Made by a program: the position numbers and the translations under genes. From Bacteroidota bacterium (GTDB lineage: Bacteria > Bacteroidota > Bacteroidia > UKL13-3), in assembly GCA_030680835.1 (NCBI GenBank), contig JAUXUD010000082.1, forward strand, positions 1-64,000: a stretch of DNA of 64,000 nucleotides, given 5' to 3'. Of this stretch, positions 1,988 to 20,487 are shown in pieces (position 1 is the stretch's first letter; every line of letters starts with the position of its first letter). The notes under the pieces were generated by a model. The model was not told where the DNA came from. It worked only from the letters and a program-made list of their open reading frames with translations, and did no database searches.

Positions 1988-3145
1988 ATGTACGCTACCA
2001 TTTCAGATATGCTCAGGGATTTACTGGGTTTAAATATTCCGCTTCCCATTCAAACATTTGGTTTTTTTATGGCAATCTCTTTCGCTGCTGCCTATTGGGT
2101 TTCATCCATTGAGCTCAAACGAAAAGAAGCAGAAGGACTTATTAATCCATTTCAAAAACAGATAAGCCGTAATGAACCTATCACAATGGTTGATTATATA
2201 ACCACGGTTATTATCGGTGCATTTATAGGCTTTAAGGGACTGGAAGCAATATTGAACTATGATGCACTGGTTGCCAATCCGCAGTTATTTATTTTTTCGG
2301 CAAAAGGCAGCTGGTTTGGAGCCATAGCGGGAGGAGCCATTTCCTACTACCTCAAGAGCAAAGAGGCAAAAGCCCTGGAGGGTAAAAAACCTGAAAAAGT
2401 AATGGTATCGGTTCACCCTTATGAAATGATGGGGAATGTGGTTGCCATAGCTGCCATTGGAGGTATATTGGGGGCAAAGATATTTCACAACCTCGAAAAT
2501 CTGGATGACTTTTTTGCTGATCCGATTGGCTCCCTATTGTCATTTAGCGGTTTAACTTTTTACGGTGGACTGATTGTAGCGGCAATAGGAATTATTTACT
2601 ATACCTCAAAAAATGGCATTCCACCATTAATGATGATGGATGCTACCGCACCGGCTTTAATACTTGCATACGGTCTGGGACGCTTGGGCTGCCATTTAAG
2701 CGGGGATGGTGACTGGGGCATTGATAACCTGGCTGCACAACCGCAATGGTTAAGCTTTTTACCGGAGTGGACCTGGGCTTATAATTATCCGCATAATGTG
2801 TTAAACGAAGGAATTCCGATTCCGGGTTGTGAGGGGGCACATTGCAGTATGCTGCAAAACCCTGTTTTTCCAACTGCTTTTTATGAAACGCTTGCCGGTA
2901 TTTTTTTGTTCTTTGTGTTGTGGGCATTGCGAAAATCTTTTACAATACCCGGTACTTTATTTTGTTTTTATTTAATTTTAAATGGCAGTGAACGGTTTTT
3001 AATTGAAAAAATCAGGGTGAATACCACGTATCACATCTATGGTAAATTTATCACCCAGGCCGAAATTATTTCTTCGGTATTATTCCTGGCGGGTGTTATT
3101 GGCTTGATTTATTTGTGGGTACAGGCCAAAAATAAGCTGGCATGA
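1988..3145 (+). CDS. lgt: Prolipoprotein diacylglyceryl transferase
   Basis: Lgt transfers diacylglyceryl from phosphatidylglycerol to the lipobox cysteine of prolipoproteins in the inner membrane, the first step of lipoprotein maturation. I see at least seven hydrophobic segments, the family core GLGRLGCHLSGDGDWG (about residue 235 on) and a late NGSERFLIEKIRVN arginine motif. At 385 aa it is longer than the roughly 280-aa E. coli enzyme; a cytoplasmic loop with KEAKALEGKKPEKV and a periplasmic insertion around the two-cysteine PGCEGAHC account for the excess, as in other Bacteroidota homologues. ATG 1988 is chosen over an in-frame TTG at 1973. It serves the several lipobox proteins encoded nearby. 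Confidence 0.93.
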   Translation: MYATISDMLRDLLGLNIPLPIQTFGFFMAISFAAAYWVSSIELKRKEAEGLINPFQKQISRNEPITMVDYITTVIIGAFIGFKGLEAILNYDALVANPQLFIFSAKGSWFGAIAGGAISYYLKSKEAKALEGKKPEKVMVSVHPYEMMGNVVAIAAIGGILGAKIFHNLENLDDFFADPIGSLLSFSGLTFYGGLIVAAIGIIYYTSKNGIPPLMMMDATAPALILAYGLGRLGCHLSGDGDWGIDNLAAQPQWLSFLPEWTWAYNYPHNVLNEGIPIPGCEGAHCSMLQNPVFPTAFYETLAGIFLFFVLWALRKSFTIPGTLFCFYLILNGSERFLIEKIRVNTTYHIYGKFITQAEIISSVLFLAGVIGLIYLWVQAKNKLA

Positions 3146-3164
3146 TTTTTTCGTTTATCTGTGC

Positions 3165-3704
3165 ATGAAGAAGTTATTGTTATTATGGGTTGTTTCACTT
3201 TTAAGCTTAGGGTATACCCAGGCTCAAATAGAAGTTACCGACACCCCGATGCTGAAGTTTACACTGCCCGATTTTATACTGGAGGCACAACAGGATTCAA
3301 ACTATGAGAAAAAATACCAGCGCATGGTATATAATGTGAGAAAGGTTTTGCCTTATGCAAAAATGGCCAGTTTCCGGTTTCAGCTTATGGAGCAAAACCT
3401 GCAGGTATTGCCAACCGAAAAATCCCGGAATGAATACCTGAAAAGAACTGAGAAAGCCATCAAAGAGCAGTTTATGGATGACTTAAAAAACATGACCCAG
3501 TCGCAGGGAAAAATTCTGATTAAGCTTATTTACCGTGAAACCGGAAAGACTACATACGATCTCTTACAAACCTATCGGGGTACGATAACTGCCATATACT
3601 GGCAAGGTATGGCGAAGGTGTTTGATGCCAATTTAAAACAGGAGTATGATCCTGTAGAGGACTGGCAAATTGAACAAATCATTAAACAACTGGGGTTTGA
3701 ATAA
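3165..3704 (+). CDS. DUF4294 secreted protein
   Basis: This is a 179-aa protein with a clear signal peptide (MKKLLLLWVVSLLSLGYTQAQ). The mature part is mostly helical, with the family core YQRMVYNVRKVLPYAKMASFRFQLMEQNL (about 50-79) that defines Bacteroidota DUF4294. A conserved basic KLIYRETGKTTYDLLQTYRG segment follows at about 121-140. Function is unknown; it is probably periplasmic. It starts 19 bases after lgt, so co-transcription is likely. A heptamer repeat array starts 5 bases after its stop codon. Family assignment is from recalled motif similarity. Confidence 0.8.
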   Translation: MKKLLLLWVVSLLSLGYTQAQIEVTDTPMLKFTLPDFILEAQQDSNYEKKYQRMVYNVRKVLPYAKMASFRFQLMEQNLQVLPTEKSRNEYLKRTEKAIKEQFMDDLKNMTQSQGKILIKLIYRETGKTTYDLLQTYRGTITAIYWQGMAKVFDANLKQEYDPVEDWQIEQIIKQLGFE

Positions 3705-3709
3705 TAACA

Positions 3710-3874
3710 GAGGTATGAGTTATGAGTTATGAGGTATGAGGTATGAGTTTTTACTCATACCTCATAACTTATAACTCATACCTCATACCTCATACCTAAT
3801 ACCTAATACCTAATACCTAATACCTAATACCTAATACCTCATACCTAATACCTCATACCTAATATCTCATACCT
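3710..3874. repeat. Heptamer array (GAGGTAT / CCTAATA units) forming a long hairpin
   Basis: Six units of the GAGGTAT/GAGTTAT type (3710-3751) are followed by seventeen units in the opposite sense (ACTCATA, CCTCATA, CCTAATA; 3753-3871), all in strict 7-base register. The two senses face each other, giving a potential stem of about 30 bp with a T-rich loop near 3748-3752. There is no coding potential. The array begins 5 bases after the DUF4294 stop and fills most of the 242-base gap before the glycosyltransferase. Confidence 0.95.
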
Positions 3875-3931
3875 TTCATTTTAATCCACACCTTGTTGAT
3901 ATTGGTATGATAAAGGTACAGGCAATGTATA

Positions 3932-3939
3932 TACATTTG
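3932..3939 (+). promoter_or_regulatory. Bacteroidota-type -7 element
   Basis: TACATTTG matches the Bacteroidota -7 consensus TAnnTTTG and ends 7 bases before the ATG at 3947, so the transcript would be almost leaderless. No convincing TTTG -33 box lies 19 to 21 bases upstream, which lowers confidence. Confidence 0.4.
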
Positions 3940-3946
3940 CCGCAAC

Positions 3947-5077
3947 ATGCTGGAAACATTCAATTTTTGGGAACTTTTTGTAATGGGGATTTTGGGATTT
4001 GCAACCCTTATTCAATTGTTTTACTATTTGGTGGTTTATAGTAAACTCGCTTTTTATAAACAGCCGGAGGCTTTATATACTCAGGATTTACCTCCGGTAT
4101 CAGTTATTATCGCTGCACGCAATGAATACAATTTTCTTGAAAAAAATCTGAAAACGATACTCGAACAGGATTACCCCAGCTTTGAAGTAATTGTAGTAAA
4201 CGATTGCAGTTGGGACGATAGCCAGAAATTGCTGGAATACTACCAGGAAGTGTATCCAAATCTGAGAATTTGCCAGTTGATTGAGCAGGAAAAATATCCA
4301 ACCGGCAAAAAATTTGCAATAACCATGGGAATCAAGGCAGCAACTTTTAACCAAATGTTTTTTACTGATGCCGATTGTGTGCCTGCCAGCAACCAATGGT
4401 TGCGCTTAATGCAAAGCCGTTTTCAGGACGGTAAAGAAATTGTGCTGGGATACTCACCCTATAAAAAATATTCGGGTATACTTAATTTATTTATCCGTTA
4501 CGAGAGCGTATTTACTGCCATCAACTATTTTTCGGCAGCAATCGGTAAAAATGCTTTTATTGGGGTTGGCAGAAATCTGGCATATACCCGCGATTTGTTT
4601 TTTAAACACAAGGGCTTTGCTTCGCATCAGCATATTTTGAGCGGAGATGACGATTTATTTGTTAACCAGGCTGCAACCGCCGACAATGTTGCTATACAGC
4701 TGGATCCTCAAAGTTTTGTTAATACAGAACCCAAAAAAACATTTGAATCGTGGCAACGCCAGAAAGCCCGGCATGTGAGTACCGGTAAATATTATAAAGC
4801 AAAACATCAACTGTTTTTGGGAGCATATTATGCAAGCTTGTTTTTGTTTTATGCAGCAATTATTACTTTGTTAATTCTAAGGGTTGATTGGGAAATTATC
4901 CTGTTTTTTTATGCATTGCGTTTTGTTATTCAAACTGCAATCCTGTATTTTATATTCACCAAACTTAAATGTATGAGTCTTATCTGGTTTATTCTTTTAC
5001 TGGATTTCCTGTATTTGATTTACATTGGTATCTTTGGCACCACAGGTTTATTTGCCAAAAACAAAAAAGTCTGGTAA
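3947..5077 (+). CDS. Membrane-bound family 2 glycosyltransferase
   Basis: This is a 376-aa GT-A fold glycosyltransferase. An N-terminal membrane helix (about 8-30) precedes the GT2 core PVSVIIAARNEYNFLEKNLKTIL (about 50-72), a VVNDCSWDD motif, the metal-binding DADC (about 142), a GDDD acid motif and a QRQKARHVSTG segment reminiscent of the QxxRW region of processive GT2 enzymes. Two or three membrane helices close the protein (about 290-370). It probably adds a sugar to a lipid-linked acceptor on the cytoplasmic face of the inner membrane; donor and acceptor are not deducible. rsmG follows 13 bases later and a second GT2 lies beyond it. Confidence 0.88.
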   Translation: MLETFNFWELFVMGILGFATLIQLFYYLVVYSKLAFYKQPEALYTQDLPPVSVIIAARNEYNFLEKNLKTILEQDYPSFEVIVVNDCSWDDSQKLLEYYQEVYPNLRICQLIEQEKYPTGKKFAITMGIKAATFNQMFFTDADCVPASNQWLRLMQSRFQDGKEIVLGYSPYKKYSGILNLFIRYESVFTAINYFSAAIGKNAFIGVGRNLAYTRDLFFKHKGFASHQHILSGDDDLFVNQAATADNVAIQLDPQSFVNTEPKKTFESWQRQKARHVSTGKYYKAKHQLFLGAYYASLFLFYAAIITLLILRVDWEIILFFYALRFVIQTAILYFIFTKLKCMSLIWFILLLDFLYLIYIGIFGTTGLFAKNKKVW

Positions 5078-11928: not shown

Positions 11929-13305
11929 TTATAGGCGAAAGAGTAAGGCAAAAATTATCCGGTCTTCTGATTTAACAAGGTCAGGTACCCAACCTGGGGT
12001 TAATGGCGTAGTTGTATATCCGCTTGGCGAGGTAACACCACCTCTGCCTGCAAAATAAGGTACACTGGATTCGCGATGTACATATTCAAAACGAAACAAT
12101 ATATGTTCATTTGCCATCCAATCAATATTGGTTGAAACATCCCATCCTTCAAACGGATCTCCTGCATTTGCACTAAATGGATGGGTTCCGGATATTGTTG
12201 TGGGATTGGTTGGATTTGGCAAAGGGCTTGCATCACCGGCTGGATATAAAACCAAATAGCGTCCCGGATTTTTCATATATCCGCCACCTGCTGTCCATGC
12301 AAATTTATTTTTTGCAAACCATACCCTGTTATATGCCATCAAGCTTAAAAAATATTGTGCCGGACCTTGTGTTGCATTGCCGTTTTTAAATCCATTTACC
12401 CCACCTCCTTTTTCAAATCCTATATCGCCGGTAATCGAAAATGCCATTTTACTAATTTTCTTAGAAGAGGGTACATTATAATAACGAAGTAAAAAGCTAT
12501 TGTCGGTATGAAACCTTTTGCGCGAAGGAATTCCTGCGGCATCGGCACCATAGTAATTATTGGTTATTAATTTAATATTCTCGTTTGGACACCAGCTTAT
12601 GTTACCGCCAATACCCGGTTGTTTGTTAAACATGCCATAACTTTGCCAGCCATTAATAATCCAGGGTTCTATTTTTAATTTTTTAGTAGCAAAAATCTGA
12701 ATTCTCATTCCATTAAAATACCAAGGAGTATTATCAGAAGTAAAAGAAGCCTGGTATTCCCAGTTTTCAGTTTGGTAATATGAATTTAATCCAATATACG
12801 ACATAAACATTCCGGCATCCACATTTACACCGTATAGTACTTTAAAATGATATCCTGCATTGGCTTCAGCTAAAAAACGATACACATCCGCAAGCTGATA
12901 CTGTCCATGATAAACACTGTAATCGTTTCTGGGAACCAGGATTGACCGGGTTCCGAACTGAGTCACAATATGAGCTCTTGCTCCATTAAAGGTAAAATCG
13001 CCGCCCAAATAAACGGCAGAAACCTGCATCTCATTATTTCTTGCCAGCGCGGTTGAACCAACAACCGTATTATCAATCGGATTGTTAAATGAATAGGTAT
13101 AATTGGCGTCCAGCATAACGGTAGGTGTAAAATATTTGCCAGCAAGTGTAGGCGAAGATCGCCTGTCGCCACCGTTTAACCAGGTCATGTCCATTCCTTC
13201 CAAGGGCTCTCCTTTCTGACGATTAACCTGTTCGGTACTGTCATCCTGGGCAATGGCCGCCTGCATAAATAAAAATAAAGCCATGCATAATAATTTTGTT
13301 TTCAT
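11929..13305 (-). CDS. BBP2 (OmpL-like) outer-membrane beta-barrel porin
   Basis: This is a 458-aa protein with signal peptide MKTKLLCMALFLFMQAAIAQ; the ATG at 13305 is preferred over the in-frame GTG at 13326 because it begins this signal. The mature start PLEGMDMTWLNGGDRRSSP and alternating aromatic strands match the Bacteroidota 'putative beta-barrel porin-2, OmpL-like' family. The protein ends in a strand-like FALLFRL with aromatic and hydrophobic alternation typical of a barrel C-terminus. Substrate is unknown. It begins 11 bases after the M1 peptidase stop on the same strand, so the two outer-membrane proteins are probably co-expressed. Confidence 0.85.
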   Translation of the reverse strand: MKTKLLCMALFLFMQAAIAQDDSTEQVNRQKGEPLEGMDMTWLNGGDRRSSPTLAGKYFTPTVMLDANYTYSFNNPIDNTVVGSTALARNNEMQVSAVYLGGDFTFNGARAHIVTQFGTRSILVPRNDYSVYHGQYQLADVYRFLAEANAGYHFKVLYGVNVDAGMFMSYIGLNSYYQTENWEYQASFTSDNTPWYFNGMRIQIFATKKLKIEPWIINGWQSYGMFNKQPGIGGNISWCPNENIKLITNNYYGADAAGIPSRKRFHTDNSFLLRYYNVPSSKKISKMAFSITGDIGFEKGGGVNGFKNGNATQGPAQYFLSLMAYNRVWFAKNKFAWTAGGGYMKNPGRYLVLYPAGDASPLPNPTNPTTISGTHPFSANAGDPFEGWDVSTNIDWMANEHILFRFEYVHRESSVPYFAGRGGVTSPSGYTTTPLTPGWVPDLVKSEDRIIFALLFRL

Positions 13306-13316
13306 ATTTAAATAAA

Positions 13317-16300
13317 TCAGAAACACCTTTGAATTCCAAACTGATATCTGAATTTAAAATTTTCTTGTTCAGTATATGGTGCATTACTCAGGTATAATGG
13401 CATATCAAAACGAATGGTAAGCGGCTTGATTTCTTCCAGAATTCCCCATTTTTTTATTGTTAAGGCAAAACCGGCCCCGCCACAGGCTAAAATTGGAGTA
13501 ATTACACGCTCAATTGATCCATTGTTACCATCAATCGGACCGATATTGTTTGCTCTAATAAAACCGGCATCAAAAAATAAATAACTGTCAATATGTAAAT
13601 AATTTGAGAAATACCTGGGTTTAAATGGAATGAATTTATCGTAATCCATTTCAATGTTAACAGATGCTCCCGAATTGCCCCGGTATAAAAAGTATTGTTC
13701 ACCATATTTAGTTACCGGCATCAGATAGCCAGCATAGCCTCTTAGGTTCAAGCCGCCACCTGCCTGCATATAATTGGGTTCAGTGCCATATAAAAAACCA
13801 GCAGCCGGCAATACGCCTGCCGAGCGGGTGTATTTGTTTTCTATCATTTCCTCAGGATTGGCTCCGGCCAGATAAAGTTGAGATTCAGGAGCAAAATTAC
13901 TTCCAGTCATTATTTGGCCAAACAAGCGGGTTCTGATTTCAAACTTGCTCAGGTTATTGTTTTGAATAATCTGAAGATATGCCGTTGCATAATCAAAATC
14001 GGAAAACAAAGTATTGGTTTTTAATCCTGCCAATAGTTTACCGGAACCCAATAATGCTTTATATGCATGTTCAATTTCTATATTCAGCGTATTGTTCCAT
14101 TGCCTGTATGAAGAGAGATTGGGATAAAAATATGCACCAGGAATATCAATGGGCTGATAGGCGGGCAGATAATATAACTGATGTCTTTGCATGCTTTTAA
14201 CAAACAAACGATAACTGGTATTTCCCCGTGTTTTTTCAAGGCCTATCCGATTCAAAAAGATCCCATCCAATAAACGCGATTGAAAATTAATATCCAGAAA
14301 TTTTGCAATGCGGTGTTTGTAGGAAAGCGAATAATGAAAAGGGTATATTGATGGACTTTTTTGGTAAATAACATCATATGAATTAAAAGGTAAAATATTT
14401 GCATTGCTCATAAAATTACTGGCAATACCTTTGTTATACCAAACAGTAAATTTAAACACATGTTTTTGGTTCATATAATTTCCATTTACATGCAGACCCG
14501 CTTTAATGCCATCGAAATTATTGTACCAGATATCGGGCCGCCATTTTAAAATATAGTGCCTTCTATCCAATGGATTATTTAACTGATGGTCGAAAGTAAA
14601 CAGCACCGGGCAACGAAGGCTGTTGTTTAACTGGTTGATATCAGCCAGTCGGGTTGTGGGATCAATTACAATATTTCTGATTTCGTGTTTGTATGGAATG
14701 GTGACGGTATACGTTGGATTTAACATGCCCCATCCTTTCCAAACAGGCAATACTTTGGCTCCAGTGTTTTTTGCGAAATAAGTATTTGGAATAATATAAG
14801 ACTGCCTTGATAAATCTTTGTTTATGATATCAAAATCAACAGGCATTTGCATGCTGCCTTTTCTGCTAAAAGTGAGCTGAACAGAATCTTTATTTATGCG
14901 ATTCATTTTATCGAAACCATAGTCAATACGCTTTGTGGTTTCTAGCCATTGATCAAAGAACCAGTTTAAATCGGTATGCGTATATTGCATAATACTTGCT
15001 CTGAAATCTTCGAAATATGGATGGCATATTTTCCATTGGTTAAAATAATGCTGCAGGGCCTGTAAAAATAATTCATTCCCCAAAACATATTGCAGATTAT
15101 ATAGCATGGTGGCCGTTTTATAATACACATGCCCATAACCCCCGCCATGATTTAGAGCACCGTTAAAATCATCGCTGTGGGTGTTTAAAGGCACGTCGTT
15201 TTCATTTATCGCATCCCGTATATAACCAATCATTATGGTTTGATCCAAAGAAGGCATAGGTTTGAAATATTTATTGATATAAGTAGATTTTTTGTTGGGA
15301 TTTATTTTTTCGATTATTAACCTGCTCATGCTCCAGTGGGTTAAAAACTGCGTAAACCCTTCATCCAAACTGGCCCTGTATGTTTCATTATTGCCCACCA
15401 TTCCAAAAAACCAGTTATGACCTACTTCATGGGCAATCAACCCATAATAACCCGGACTGCTGCCCCCGTCAAGGGTTAGCATAGGGTATTCCATTCCGTC
15501 GCGTGCATCGGCACAAACCATTTTGGGGTAAGCATAAACACCAATATCCCTGCTATAGGTTTCAATAATTTTTGATGTAAAAAATGCAGCATCCTGCCAA
15601 CCACTTGCATGGGGTTCCTGAACCAAAGCAATACAACGAACTTTTTTATTGGGATTACCCGGAAGTGATAAAACCACTTCGCCATAACGGTAAGTTGGGT
15701 CGGCAGTCCAGGCAAAATCATGTGTATTTACCGAGCGGTATTTCCAGGTTTTAAAACTGCCGTTTCGGGCAATAATCGTGCTGGCTTTTTCTTCCCAGGG
15801 CTTTTTGGCAAAGTTCTTTATGTCGAGTTGAGCCCTTAAATTTGCAGGTAACATTTCAGCTTCATTTTGCAGTTCACCGGTAGCCTCCATCAGGTAATTA
15901 TTGGGCAGGGTAATTGCTACTTCAAACTGGCCAAAATCGCCATAAAATTCCTTGCCCAGGTGCTGGTCGGTTTCCCATCCAAACTTACGATCGTAAACGC
16001 ATATTCGCGGATACCAATGCACCCCGTCATATTGTTTATTTCCGGCCGCATCGGTAAACATTTTCATGCGTCGGCGTTGGTTCCCGCCCGCATCAAAGTA
16101 GGTTTTAAAATTAATGCTGAGTTCACAGGAAGCGTTTGGTAACAGGGGTTCAGGCAATACTACCTTCATAATAGAATTATCAATTTCAAAATTTGATTGC
16201 CCTTTACCATCTGTAAAATTATCACTACTTGTATTCGAAAACCGGTTGCCATTTACTTCATTAACTGCCAGGTAAATAATCTCAGTACCTTTGCCGGTAT

Positions 16301-16637
16301 TTTCATATTTGCCAAACTTCTGTTTAAAATGATTGGCTTTATTTAAGCTTTCCAGGTAGCTGCCTTTTACAAAAGCGTTTTGATATAAATGAAAATATAA
16401 AAACCAGAGGGTATCCGGTGAATTGTTATAATATTTTAATATTTCAAATCCTTCAACAATGTCTGCCGAATCATCCAGGCGGGCATTTATTTTATAATGC
16501 ACATCCTGTTGCCAGTAGGCAGCATCCGGCATTCGGTTTTTCCAGTAATACGGATTTTCGGCACTGCGGTATTCAAATGTCTGGGCTGTTAAATTCAGGT
16601 TCAAACCCAACAATAAAAGTAAAATTATTTTTCTCAT
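13317..16637 (-). CDS. M1 metallopeptidase fused to a BamA/TpsB-like outer-membrane barrel
   Basis: This is an 1106-aa protein with signal peptide MRKIILLLLLGLNLNLTAQ; ATG 16637 is chosen because the 26 residues encoded upstream would bury the signal. The peptidase domain has the exopeptidase motif GMEYP (381-385), the zinc site HEVGH (403-407) and the third ligand E426 at the canonical 18-residue spacing. From about residue 700 the sequence becomes strand-rich, has AGGGLNLRGY (959-968), which resembles the GG...RGY loop-6 motif of BamA/TpsB barrels, and ends in QFGIQRCF with a terminal phenylalanine. I infer a surface or periplasmic aminopeptidase anchored by its own barrel. The BBP2 porin gene follows 11 bases later. 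Confidence 0.85.
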   Translation of the reverse strand: MRKIILLLLLGLNLNLTAQTFEYRSAENPYYWKNRMPDAAYWQQDVHYKINARLDDSADIVEGFEILKYYNNSPDTLWFLYFHLYQNAFVKGSYLESLNKANHFKQKFGKYENTGKGTEIIYLAVNEVNGNRFSNTSSDNFTDGKGQSNFEIDNSIMKVVLPEPLLPNASCELSINFKTYFDAGGNQRRRMKMFTDAAGNKQYDGVHWYPRICVYDRKFGWETDQHLGKEFYGDFGQFEVAITLPNNYLMEATGELQNEAEMLPANLRAQLDIKNFAKKPWEEKASTIIARNGSFKTWKYRSVNTHDFAWTADPTYRYGEVVLSLPGNPNKKVRCIALVQEPHASGWQDAAFFTSKIIETYSRDIGVYAYPKMVCADARDGMEYPMLTLDGGSSPGYYGLIAHEVGHNWFFGMVGNNETYRASLDEGFTQFLTHWSMSRLIIEKINPNKKSTYINKYFKPMPSLDQTIMIGYIRDAINENDVPLNTHSDDFNGALNHGGGYGHVYYKTATMLYNLQYVLGNELFLQALQHYFNQWKICHPYFEDFRASIMQYTHTDLNWFFDQWLETTKRIDYGFDKMNRINKDSVQLTFSRKGSMQMPVDFDIINKDLSRQSYIIPNTYFAKNTGAKVLPVWKGWGMLNPTYTVTIPYKHEIRNIVIDPTTRLADINQLNNSLRCPVLFTFDHQLNNPLDRRHYILKWRPDIWYNNFDGIKAGLHVNGNYMNQKHVFKFTVWYNKGIASNFMSNANILPFNSYDVIYQKSPSIYPFHYSLSYKHRIAKFLDINFQSRLLDGIFLNRIGLEKTRGNTSYRLFVKSMQRHQLYYLPAYQPIDIPGAYFYPNLSSYRQWNNTLNIEIEHAYKALLGSGKLLAGLKTNTLFSDFDYATAYLQIIQNNNLSKFEIRTRLFGQIMTGSNFAPESQLYLAGANPEEMIENKYTRSAGVLPAAGFLYGTEPNYMQAGGGLNLRGYAGYLMPVTKYGEQYFLYRGNSGASVNIEMDYDKFIPFKPRYFSNYLHIDSYLFFDAGFIRANNIGPIDGNNGSIERVITPILACGGAGFALTIKKWGILEEIKPLTIRFDMPLYLSNAPYTEQENFKFRYQFGIQRCF

Positions 16638-16797: not shown

Positions 16798-19700
16798 ATG
16801 AAAAAACTTTACAATCTTATATCATTTCTGGCTGTATTAATTATTATTGTACCCTTTTCAAAACATTTTTTTGAACCTGGTTTTAAAGGAACCCTGTTCG
16901 AAAAATATTTTGTTACCCAGGTTAAAAAAATTCCTTTACGCGACAGAATGGATCTGGCCTGGCAGCAGGAATTCGAATTAACCAAAGACCCTGCATTGGG
17001 AATTGTTCCCAGAGAACGATTGTATCAGGCATGGCTGTATCAGCAGTCTTTATTCAGGAATCAGGGATTGGGCAAAGCTGCCATACCGGGTGTTATCTGG
17101 ACAGAAAGAGGGCCGAATAATTGTCCGGGCAGAACGCGCAGTTTGTTGGTTGATTTAAATGATGCCACCCGTAAAACCGTTTGGGCTTGTAGTGTTGGAG
17201 GCGGTTTATGGAAAACAACAGATATCACGGCAACAAATCCGGTGTGGGTAGTAAAAGATGATTTCTTTCAAAGTATTGCCCTGACACATATAGACCAGGC
17301 GCCCACCAACCCACAGATTATGTATTTTTGTACAGGTGAGGGAAATGGAAATTCGGATGCGGTTAGAGGTTTAGGAGTTTGGAAAAGTAGCAACGGAGGC
17401 AATACCTGGACGCAATTAACTGCAACCAATAATTCAAGTTACTACTATTGTCAGAAAGTATTTTCATTAGGCAACGGAGATACTGTTTTTGTAGCCACCA
17501 AAAGTGGTTTGTTCCGCTCGATAAACGGTGGCAGCACTTTTACGGTTGTTTTAGGCACTGGAATTTCATCTTCAAGTGGAAACATTTGCTGGGATATAGA
17601 AAGAGCTTACAATGGTACTTTATACGCAACCATGTCGGGCGGCACTAATGGTTCTATACATAAATCTTTTAACAATGGAACAACATGGACAATCCCATTA
17701 ACGGTTCCGGCATACGTGAGTAAAAATCAAATGGAAATAGCCATGGCTGCCAATGATTCAAATGTTATTTACGCGTTGGTTGAATTTGGAAACAGAATTA
17801 AGTCCATTATCAAATCGTCAAATGCCGGAGTTACCTGGGATACTGTGCCTGCTCATCCAATAGACGCAGATGGAGGTGTTTCGGTATCGGGTACAAATTA
17901 TAAGGACTTTAGCAGGGGTCAGGCCTGGTATGATTTAAGTTTGGTGGTTGACCCAAATAATACAAATGTAGTTGCAGCAGGCGGGGTTGATTTATTTAAA
18001 ACTACCAATGGCGGGTCAAGCTGGACACAACTTTCACACTGGTATGGTGGATTCGGGTTTCAGGAAGTACATGCCGATCAGCATTACGCATATTTTGAAC
18101 CTGGGAATTCATCAGTATGTTATTTTTCGAATGATGGTGGTGTATACCGCAGTACAAATTTTACGGCTGCTTCACCAACTATTACAAGCAAAGGAAACAA
18201 CTACAATACCACTCAGTTTTATGCCTGCGATATTCATCCCAATGGCGGGTCGAATCAATATATAGCAGGTGCACAGGATAATGGTTCACATAGTTTTGGT
18301 TCCCCGGGGATGAACGCAACTACTGAAGTAACCGGAGGTGACGGTGCATTTTGTCATATCGATCAGGACCAGCCCAGTTACTGGTTTACCTCTTATGTAT
18401 ATACTTCTTATTTCCGCTCTTCAAACGGAGGTGCATCCTTTAGCAATGCGTTAAACCCCGGGGGCAATGTGGGTTCATTTATCAGTCCAACTGATTACGA
18501 CGACATCAACAATAAAATGTATATGTGTGGAAACGCGGGCACCTATCAACGTTGGGAAAATCCGCAAACCGGAAATACCCTTACTACAGTTACGGTTCCT
18601 TTATTTAACAGCGTTAAGTTAACTCACGCAAAAGTATCACCCAATACCAATAACCGGGTGTTTTTTGGTACCAGTGGAGGTCGGGTAATCCGGGTGGATG
18701 ATGCACATCTAACAGCGCATGTGGATTCGTTTTTAAACAATGGAAAAGGAATGCCTACCGGAAGTGTTTCGTGCATTGAAGTAGAAAACGGAGATGATGC
18801 GCATCTTATTGCTACTTATTCAAACTATGGGGTGAACAGTATTTGGGAAACAAAAAATAATGGCTTTACCTGGACCAGCATTGAAGGCAATTTGCCCGAT
18901 ATGCCCATACGTTGGGCTAAGTTTAATCCCAATAAAAACTGGCAGCTCATGATTGCTACCGAGTTGGGCGTATGGACAACCGATTCGATACGGGGTACCA
19001 CAACAAACTGGCAACCCAGCAACAGCGGCTTTGCCAATGTAAGAACCGATATGCTGCAAATGCGTGGTTTCGATAAGCAGGTGGTTGCCGCAACCCACGG
19101 AAGAGGTTTATTTACCAGCAATGCATTTGCGCCTCCCTTTGCCGATTTTACCGCAAACAAAACCATTACCTATATTGGTCAGTCTATCAATTTCACAAGT
19201 GCATCAAACGGGGCCACCAGTTATAGCTGGAATTTTGGGGATGCAACTACGAGCACGCTGCAAAATCCGGTAAAGCAATATTCGGCGGCTGGAATCTACA
19301 ATATCACTCTTACCATAAATGGCGGAGCCTATTCAAAAACCATTAACAGTTATATTCAAATTTTACCTTATCGTGCGGTTCCATACACACTTGCAGCAGG
19401 GGGTAATTTTGATGTGAACCCAGCTGATTTTGGCGGAGAAATAATCAGTGGAGTGGGTTTTGAAAGAGGCAGTTCATCTGTTGCTGCAAAAAGCGGAACA
19501 GCGAGTGGAAGCTTTGCATGGGTAACCGGAATTACCGGTAATTATGCAGATAATAACAATGCCAGGTTGTATTCACCCAGTTTTAATTGCACCGCATCCG
19601 GCGCGTATACATTAAGGTTCAAAACAAAAAATAAGTTTGAAATCGCGTATGATGGTTATATTGTAGAATACAGTTTGAATTCTGGAAATACCTGGACCAA

Positions 19701-20487
19701 ACTGGGCAGCACGGTGCAAACCAATTGGTATGATTTTGCCAATACAGCAAATAATACAGCCTTCCCAATCAATGAACCCTATTTCAATGCAACCCGAACT
19801 TCATTCACCCAAATGAGTTATGTTTTTTCATCGCTGGCAGGCAATAATAAAGTATGTTTCCGCATTGTATTTAAATCCGATGTTGGGGTAACTGATGCCG
19901 GTATGGCCATTGATGATTTTGAGATACTGGGTCCAACCAATTCGGCTATGCCCGTAGTATTAACAAGCTTTACCGGACATCGCACAAGCCCCGAAACCGT
20001 TCAATTAAACTGGAGTACCGCATCAGAACAAAACAACAAAGGATTTGAAATTGAAAGGAGCATTGACGGCATTCAATTTAAGCACCTGTTTTTCCAGGCT
20101 GGAAAAATCAACACGAACACCATTCAAAAATATTTGTACATCGATACTGATGCACAGCAGGATCACTTATATTATCGCCTAAAGCAAATTGATTTAAACG
20201 GCGTTTTTCAATACTCACAAATCATTTCAATTGGTTCAACCCGCAACGAAGAAAAGCTTGCAAGGGTAAGCCATTTGATCAATTCAAAAATAGTATTTAT
20301 TGACAGCTCTGAACCCACACTAACAGCACGCCTCATCAACCAAAGCGGACAGGAAATTCGCACATTTAATCTAAATCCCGGCAATCACAAATACAGTTTT
20401 GATGAATTGCCTGCAGGTATTTATATATTAGAAATCACCGATGCTAAAGGAGCAAAACAGGTTGAGAAAGTTTTGTTGATGGAATAG
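16798..20487 (+). CDS. Giant secreted sortilin/BNR beta-propeller protein with PKD and T9SS domains
   Basis: This 1229-aa protein has an N-terminal signal anchor (MKKLYNLISFLAVLIIIVPF), then a long beta-propeller region (about 90-775) with repeated BNR/sortilin blades such as GVWKSSNGGNTWTQL, GLFRSINGGSTF, DLFKTTNGGSSWTQL and ATHGRGLF. A PKD domain (about 780-860, YSWNFGDATTSTLQNPVKQY), a jelly-roll-like segment (about 870-1050), a fibronectin-like linker and a final T9SS type A sorting domain (about 1150-1229) follow. It should be exported by Sec, moved across the outer membrane by T9SS and attached to the surface. Ligand is unknown; VPS10-like propellers bind peptides or glycans. The gene is monocistronic. 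Confidence 0.9.
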   Translation: MKKLYNLISFLAVLIIIVPFSKHFFEPGFKGTLFEKYFVTQVKKIPLRDRMDLAWQQEFELTKDPALGIVPRERLYQAWLYQQSLFRNQGLGKAAIPGVIWTERGPNNCPGRTRSLLVDLNDATRKTVWACSVGGGLWKTTDITATNPVWVVKDDFFQSIALTHIDQAPTNPQIMYFCTGEGNGNSDAVRGLGVWKSSNGGNTWTQLTATNNSSYYYCQKVFSLGNGDTVFVATKSGLFRSINGGSTFTVVLGTGISSSSGNICWDIERAYNGTLYATMSGGTNGSIHKSFNNGTTWTIPLTVPAYVSKNQMEIAMAANDSNVIYALVEFGNRIKSIIKSSNAGVTWDTVPAHPIDADGGVSVSGTNYKDFSRGQAWYDLSLVVDPNNTNVVAAGGVDLFKTTNGGSSWTQLSHWYGGFGFQEVHADQHYAYFEPGNSSVCYFSNDGGVYRSTNFTAASPTITSKGNNYNTTQFYACDIHPNGGSNQYIAGAQDNGSHSFGSPGMNATTEVTGGDGAFCHIDQDQPSYWFTSYVYTSYFRSSNGGASFSNALNPGGNVGSFISPTDYDDINNKMYMCGNAGTYQRWENPQTGNTLTTVTVPLFNSVKLTHAKVSPNTNNRVFFGTSGGRVIRVDDAHLTAHVDSFLNNGKGMPTGSVSCIEVENGDDAHLIATYSNYGVNSIWETKNNGFTWTSIEGNLPDMPIRWAKFNPNKNWQLMIATELGVWTTDSIRGTTTNWQPSNSGFANVRTDMLQMRGFDKQVVAATHGRGLFTSNAFAPPFADFTANKTITYIGQSINFTSASNGATSYSWNFGDATTSTLQNPVKQYSAAGIYNITLTINGGAYSKTINSYIQILPYRAVPYTLAAGGNFDVNPADFGGEIISGVGFERGSSSVAAKSGTASGSFAWVTGITGNYADNNNARLYSPSFNCTASGAYTLRFKTKNKFEIAYDGYIVEYSLNSGNTWTKLGSTVQTNWYDFANTANNTAFPINEPYFNATRTSFTQMSYVFSSLAGNNKVCFRIVFKSDVGVTDAGMAIDDFEILGPTNSAMPVVLTSFTGHRTSPETVQLNWSTASEQNNKGFEIERSIDGIQFKHLFFQAGKINTNTIQKYLYIDTDAQQDHLYYRLKQIDLNGVFQYSQIISIGSTRNEEKLARVSHLINSKIVFIDSSEPTLTARLINQSGQEIRTFNLNPGNHKYSFDELPAGIYILEITDAKGAKQVEKVLLME

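Follow-up and report, generated by a model that had tools for sequence, protein, structure and literature searches.

The subject of this analysis is a gene at positions 13317 to 16637 (minus strand, stop codon included) of a window of 64,000 nucleotides, the whole stretch of DNA analysed, which comprises positions 1 to 64,000 of contig JAUXUD010000082.1 from a Bacteroidota bacterium (assembly GCA_030680835.1). Its open reading frame (ORF), translation and full-length relatives define a protein of 1106 amino acids (aa) from the ATG, in which an M1 peptidase appears to be fused to an Omp85-type barrel. Taking sequence, models and analogy together, we favour, at a probability of roughly 0.63, the reading that this protein is an exported M1 zinc aminopeptidase on an Omp85-type barrel in which no POTRA domain is recognisable, that the enzyme would face the periplasm, and that the barrel would have a further role.

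The M1 peptidase and the predicted barrel

Among 80 related loci, 75 passed a filter for a complete ORF with an end-to-end match (L043, L051, L053, L057 and L059 failed). After removal of 12 near-copies, 63 loci and the window protein were aligned as 64 full-length sequences, the relatives being 47-68% identical to the window protein. Their records were mostly metagenome-assembled Bacteroidota; two were complete chromosomes, one of Bacteroidetes bacterium UKL13-3 and one of Chitinophagaceae bacterium LGM1.

A putative Sec-type signal peptide was recognised by eye at residues 1-19 (MRKIILLLLLGLNLNLTAQ; 16581 to 16637), with no lipobox cysteine seen in it. The M1 N-terminal beta domain and catalytic domain follow at residues 41-565 (14943 to 16517), and the Peptidase_M1 model PF01433 matched residues 400-564 with 52.9 bits against a cut-off of 27.7. 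The motif GMEY (residues 381-384; 15486 to 15497), which we take to be the G-x-M-E exopeptidase motif, was identical in all 64 sequences, as were H403, E404 and H407 of the HEVGH zinc site (residues 403-407; 15417 to 15431), the distal E426 (15360 to 15362), Y501, presumably the catalytic tyrosine, and Y505. With E426 located 18 residues past H407, the zinc site has the HExxH-18-E form. The AlphaFold2 model of the full-length protein had a predicted local distance difference test score (pLDDT) of 84.9 and a predicted template modelling score (pTM) of 0.83, and VIA, which re-aligns only the chains that Foldseek ranked highest, aligned its M1 part with the solved M1 enzymes TIFF3, ERAP1/2, IRAP, LTA4H and PepN at Z 26.3-29.1 over 391-508 residues (2.9-4.1 Å). 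Since the active-site residues are conserved in 64/64 sequences and the predicted fold matches that of M1 enzymes, the enzyme is very probably active. For the full-length model, VIA returned nothing but M1 enzymes, a result that is uninformative on the barrel.

An all-beta domain (residues 573-682; 14592 to 14921), assigned from the secondary structure of the model, lies between the catalytic domain and the barrel and would occupy the position of M1 domain III. Beyond it, 16 strands were predicted in the C-terminal ~410 residues (695-1102), both in the full-length model and when residues 686-1106 were modelled alone (pLDDT 86.1, pTM 0.85). The predicted Omp85-type barrel thus spans residues 695-1106 (13320 to 14555, minus strand like all parts of the gene). 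The longest of its connectors, with 74 residues, joins strands 11 and 12 at the position of Omp85 loop 6 (residues 915-988; 13674 to 13895); it contains ESQLYLAGANPEEM and, at residues 960-968, GGGLNLRGY, with RGY at 13734 to 13742. This segment was strongly conserved in the alignment: R966 was present in 64/64, G967 in 62/64 and a Y or F as residue 968 in 63/64. The protein ends in phenylalanine in 63/64.

The 50 best Foldseek rows for the barrel among PDB structures were all BamA, the β-barrel assembly machinery (BAM) or TamA (E 1.4e-9 to 1.5e-7). Likewise, the 50 best VIA matches were by title BamA/BAM, TamA or mitochondrial sorting and assembly machinery entries (Z 18.4-20.9, root-mean-square deviation 4.3-6.1 Å, 266-321 residues), including Flavobacterium johnsoniae BamA (9n2e, Z 19.4); the one exception by title was 5ayw ('Structure of a membrane complex'), presumably a BAM structure as well. 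A preliminary description of this DNA, made from its letters, had proposed a complete M1 peptidase (GMEYP, HEVGH and distal E) followed by about 400 residues of outer-membrane barrel with a GG..LRGY motif and a terminal phenylalanine, and had suggested comparing a predicted structure of this region with BamA. All these features were recovered, and the region was predicted to be a 16-stranded barrel, with solved Omp85 proteins as its best matches, and not another soluble beta fold.

Relation of the barrel to Omp85 proteins

By sequence, the barrel proved difficult to place. The last 400 residues were covered by no Pfam, NCBIfam or PHROGs match at the thresholds used, and none of the Pfam Omp85 models matched among the 64 members; PF01103 gave no match at E<=1 in the 64 members, or in the 7 stand-alone and 2 M1-less relatives scanned (see below). 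Pfam matches of the 64 barrels were weak and fell into eight unrelated families with 1-4 members each (best E 0.0025), and the barrel profile, searched against PDB sequences, found nothing up to E 10. No POTRA domain was found among the Pfam matches of the window protein, although no search was aimed at POTRA; the domain that precedes the barrel was modelled as all-beta. The barrel is therefore a blind spot of Pfam and, for the proteins scanned, of NCBIfam.

That Pfam gave the C-terminal region only weak hits to unrelated families would agree with an assembly or annotation artefact, or with a soluble beta region mistaken for a barrel. Such an explanation is next to negligible in our estimate, as the complete fused ORF in 75/80 loci already refutes the artefact of fusion and the two models concur on 16 strands.

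Next, barrel profiles were compared (hhalign; each E-value refers to a single comparison) with five Omp85 sets from the same genome. This genome encodes an 849-aa BamA candidate (L150) with PF01103 and a 426-aa Omp85 protein (L153) that also matches PF01103; the other sets were L151 and L152, which we take to be TamL-like, and L154. A combined profile of 58 rows, made of the window family and its divergent M1-fused, stand-alone and M1-less relatives, reached E 1.1e-4 with BamA (probability 56%), 3.7e-7 with the L153 family (93%), 2.3e-5 and 2.6e-5 with L151 and L152 (76 and 75%), and 0.027 with L154 (2%). As controls, four reversed profiles gave E 0.17-0.45 and a BBP2 protein 0.26. When known Omp85 sets were compared with one another in ten control pairs, four pairs gave 5.7e-30 to 5.7e-5 and six gave 0.067-0.6, indicating that weak values are normal inside the Omp85 superfamily. 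The fusion protein was also considered as a BamA itself and rejected, because Pfam detected neither a PF01103 barrel nor a POTRA array in it and the genome holds the separate candidate L150.

Several observations weigh against the proposed assignment. The window family by itself (profile of residues 686-1106) appears hardly tied to Omp85 by sequence, its E-values ranging from 4.6e-4 to 0.24 (BamA 0.24, L153 family 0.043, L151 4.6e-4, L152 0.01, L154 0.12), and 14 stand-alone proteins taken alone gave 7e-4, 0.093, 0.0042, 0.1 and 0.78 with BamA, the L153 family, L151, L152 and L154, respectively. Even the combined profile stayed at probabilities of 56-93% and missed one of the five sets, L154. 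Template modelling scores to BamA and TamA in Foldseek were limited to 0.38-0.52 by query length. The RGY motif was missing in 7 of the 11 divergent M1-fused barrels examined, being retained in 4, and R or K occupies position -3 from the C-terminus in 64/64 sequences, unlike what we take to be the usual C-terminal signature of outer membrane proteins. Finally, amphipathic alternation was discarded as a proof of a membrane barrel because it does not discriminate (0.48 in barrel strands, 0.39 in M1 strands).

Distribution, M1-less relatives and gene neighbourhoods

The fusion is a stable, widespread Bacteroidota family, far beyond what chance would yield. Among the matches listed, it was found at E<=1e-200 in 52 of the 60 nearest genomes, its own included, and in 75/80 loci a complete ORF aligned nearly end to end at 45-71% identity. 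The barrel profile of the window family matched in 193/396 genomes of the class, mostly once per genome and, among the matches listed, mostly in ORFs of 1050-1130 aa. A broader profile (A4) matched in 126/392 genomes of the phylum, some of these matches being weak and in ORFs of other kinds.

Other architectures were found beside the fusion. The same genome encodes a second M1 protein of 1024 aa (G000:C46; L234, 271-3342), whose C-terminus is a distant relative of the barrels but lacks the RGY motif. The C-termini of 15 proteins of this type matched the combined profile at E 1e-11 over 362 columns and the window family alone at 0.11; they were not linked to four Omp85 sets (E 0.022-0.27), and an RG[YF] motif was present in 1/15. 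Divergent M1-barrel proteins from outside the class (13 taken) matched the window family by their barrels at E 2e-36 over 350 columns, and soluble M1 proteins of ~630 aa end ahead of the barrel.

Stand-alone barrels amounted, among the matches listed, to at least 55 ORFs of 400-472 aa with E-values of 1e-21 or lower, in at least 54 genomes; 15 of the 55 counted were inspected in 14 loci (L288-L300 and L303). A set of 14 aligned with the window family over 359 columns (E 8e-47) and retained RGY in 13 cases, and 7 that were scanned had no Pfam match. By eye, an acetate-kinase-like ORF followed in 9 of the 14 loci and a NUDIX-like ORF preceded in 10, with both in 6; in L290 the two neighbours were confirmed by Pfam. 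These proteins need not be products of a split fusion, since some host genomes also hold a soluble or fused M1. In L291, a 588-aa lipoprotein-like ORF (3118-4881), negative in Pfam at E 0.01, adjoins the stand-alone barrel.

Orthologues without the M1 part were detected in two lineages (L258, 931-2784; L260, 871-2790; L263, G040:C11; L276, 317-1651). In all three genomes of genus g18 (G040, G470 and G471), the corresponding ORF of 614-640 aa lacks HExxH and the catalytic part; these proteins have a signal peptide by eye and GGLNLRGY, and they align with the window protein from its residues 599, 577 and 651 to the end. The gene of G040 is located directly behind nadC. Within the family of g18, 15/35 genomes had a match at E<=1e-200 among the matches listed. 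The second lineage is represented by G532 (L276), in which a barrel-only ORF of 445 aa with a signal peptide shares its strand with nadC and yihY, behind which it lies. Among the matches listed, ORFs of 1066-1083 aa were present in four further genomes of the family of G532. From these sequences we infer that M1 was lost twice separately, in g18 and in G532. Further short ORFs were contig-end cuts (G602, G637, G645, G699 and G518), and G476 holds a fragment only. Two other relatives, L279 (G502:C27) and L282 (G736:C126), are interrupted by an in-frame stop and a frame change, through real decay or assembly error.

Because orthologues in two lineages keep the barrel without the peptidase, the barrel probably has a use of its own beyond anchoring, and these natural M1-less orthologues make that role testable. 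One way to account for this would be an active role of the barrel as an Omp85 insertase, translocase or lipid conduit, with M1 processing or clearing its substrates. Its persistence without M1, the strong conservation of the loop 6 segment and the Omp85 fold agree with such a role, but no POTRA match was obtained in the Pfam scan, no conserved partner gene was found in the related loci, and with 203/396 class genomes lacking a barrel match it is not universal; we regard this explanation as quite improbable. A broader proposal is that the family forms an unrecognised POTRA-less branch of Omp85, whose barrel would actively pass peptides, lipids or proteins and whose M1 would be an exchangeable module acting on the barrel's cargo. 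M1 is indeed fused in most lineages and absent in others in which the barrel is kept; as a whole, this proposal remains tentative and rather doubtful.

The history of the fusion was examined with M1 trees built on selected sequences (76 and 64 rows) by quick searches, with long outgroup branches and with support values from the Shimodaira-Hasegawa-like approximate likelihood ratio test only. With 76 M1 domains, the 23 rows of the window family and the 16 rows of the 1024-aa type each formed a single group, and the 21 soluble rows came together (support 79) beside divergent barrel forms. To explain these groups a single change of architecture is enough, if the 806-aa protein of L117, which has no barrel-sized tail, is left uncounted. 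This tree nested the soluble ~630-aa form among barrel forms, as would fit a loss of its barrel, but rooting on the soluble side was not rejected by the approximately unbiased test (p 0.54), so that the change between fused and soluble forms may have run in either direction. The tree constrained to soluble-side rooting was even 2.26 log units better, and a clade with L117 added to the soluble side was rejected (p 0.001).

In the window, a second barrel gene begins 11 bases past the stop codon of the fusion (11929 to 13305, minus strand), as the preliminary description had noted. It encodes a BBP2 porin-like protein (PF07642, E 3.2e-39) and stands outside the system: no homologue of it was found among the ORFs of the 80 loci around the relatives (best E 2.0), although a downstream ORF was present in 73/80. 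It was accordingly ruled out as a conserved partner and is probably an incidental neighbour. On the other side, a divergent gene (16798 to 20487, plus strand) encodes a protein of 1229 aa with a PKD domain and a type IX secretion system sorting tail, as revealed by domain scans; a homologue was present somewhere in 11/80 related loci. This protein also had a sub-threshold glycosylhydrolase-type NCBIfam match. Gene neighbourhoods of the fusion relatives were variable. A family of large secreted proteins recurred on either side in 15 loci; an rlmH-like gene (by eye) was upstream on the opposite strand in 14, and nadC and a YihY/BrkB membrane protein gene were each upstream on the same strand in 14, the names nadC and BrkB coming from Pfam on the M1-less loci.

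Membrane topology and comparison with known systems

Outer-membrane anchoring of the M1 enzyme is predicted from the barrel fold together with the signal peptide. The protein would be exported by Sec, and BAM would then insert the barrel in the outer membrane; the M1 domain would remain on the periplasmic side and trim peptides beside the membrane, and the barrel would perform an additional function of its own. The even number of strands (16) places both ends of the barrel on one side. In the model, the connectors on the side of both termini total 37 residues and those on the other side 178. As short turns mark the periplasmic side of outer-membrane barrels, the M1 domain is expected in the periplasm, provided that it is not transported across the membrane. 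To the points against this reading must be added that three presumed-outer connectors are also short (2-6 residues), and that a known outer-membrane aminopeptidase, AaaA, is located on the cell surface (PMC3426542).

An alternative is that M1 is carried outside like an autotransporter passenger and serves as a cell-surface aminopeptidase for peptide feeding. AaaA of Pseudomonas aeruginosa provides a precedent, being tethered to the cell surface by its own barrel and aiding growth on peptides (PMC3426542), and the order of enzyme and barrel is that of the secretion model formerly held for PlpD (PMC11116518). Nevertheless, the connector pattern places both termini in the periplasm, the enzyme of PlpD was found to be exclusively periplasmic (PMC11116518), and AaaA is a classical autotransporter and not an Omp85 protein. 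Moreover, an enzyme of ~650 residues would need to pass through a barrel whose lumen loop 6 should fill. A surface location is thus considered unlikely, and the periplasmic enzyme on an Omp85-type barrel is retained as the preferred reading.

Compared with known M1 aminopeptidases (TIFF3, ERAP1, IRAP, LTA4H and PepN), the window protein is alike in fold and active site, whereas those enzymes terminate in a helical domain and the window protein has a predicted membrane barrel in that place. PF00149, named Metallophos in Pfam, is presumably a phosphoesterase family. Heinz and Lithgow (2014) described a 'Metallo' subfamily of Omp85 as barrels with an N-terminal 'metalloprotease' domain; this domain is PF00149, and the word 'peptidase' was absent from the main text (PMC4104836), so that this group was rejected as a prior description. 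In the same article, 'noNterm' Omp85 proteins are barrels without an N-terminal extension, which by description resemble the stand-alone relatives of 400-472 aa; none of 7 such relatives matched Pfam, whereas L153, the 426-aa Omp85 protein encoded in the genome of the window, does match PF01103. Bacteroidota BamA shares LRGY in loop 6 with the window barrel but carries POTRA domains where the window protein has a peptidase (PMC12611786). BamM of the F. johnsoniae BAM, a surface lipoprotein that has a PPI fold and is not an M1 peptidase (PMC12611786), was rejected as a relative.

The preliminary description had called the combination uncharacterised. In line with this, no description of an M1-Omp85 fusion was found in the excerpts of open-licence articles searched, and term searches in PMC12578637, PMC13067283 and PMC12611786 returned no such protein. 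The Omp85 proteins studied serve in protein assembly or translocation, PlpD of P. aeruginosa with its periplasmic enzyme being the exception (PMC11116518). Like the window protein, PlpD joins an N-terminal enzyme to a 16-stranded Omp85 barrel; it differs in having a patatin-like domain instead of a zinc aminopeptidase, a POTRA domain and a homodimeric state (PMC11116518). Membership in Type Vd (PlpD-like) was rejected because the enzyme is M1 and the Pfam scan gave no patatin match. AaaA likewise is an aminopeptidase whose own C-terminal barrel ties it to the outer membrane, but its enzyme is of family M28 and exposed at the surface (PMC3426542), whereas that of the window protein is M1, on a 16-stranded Omp85-type barrel and probably periplasmic. 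If the preferred reading is true, a peptidase would sit on the inner side of the outer membrane, on a second kind of enzyme-carrying Omp85 protein, much more widespread than the first (193/396 class genomes). In summary, an enzyme on an Omp85 barrel and an aminopeptidase on an outer-membrane barrel are each known separately, whereas an M1 enzyme on this barrel branch, with its wide distribution, appears to be new.

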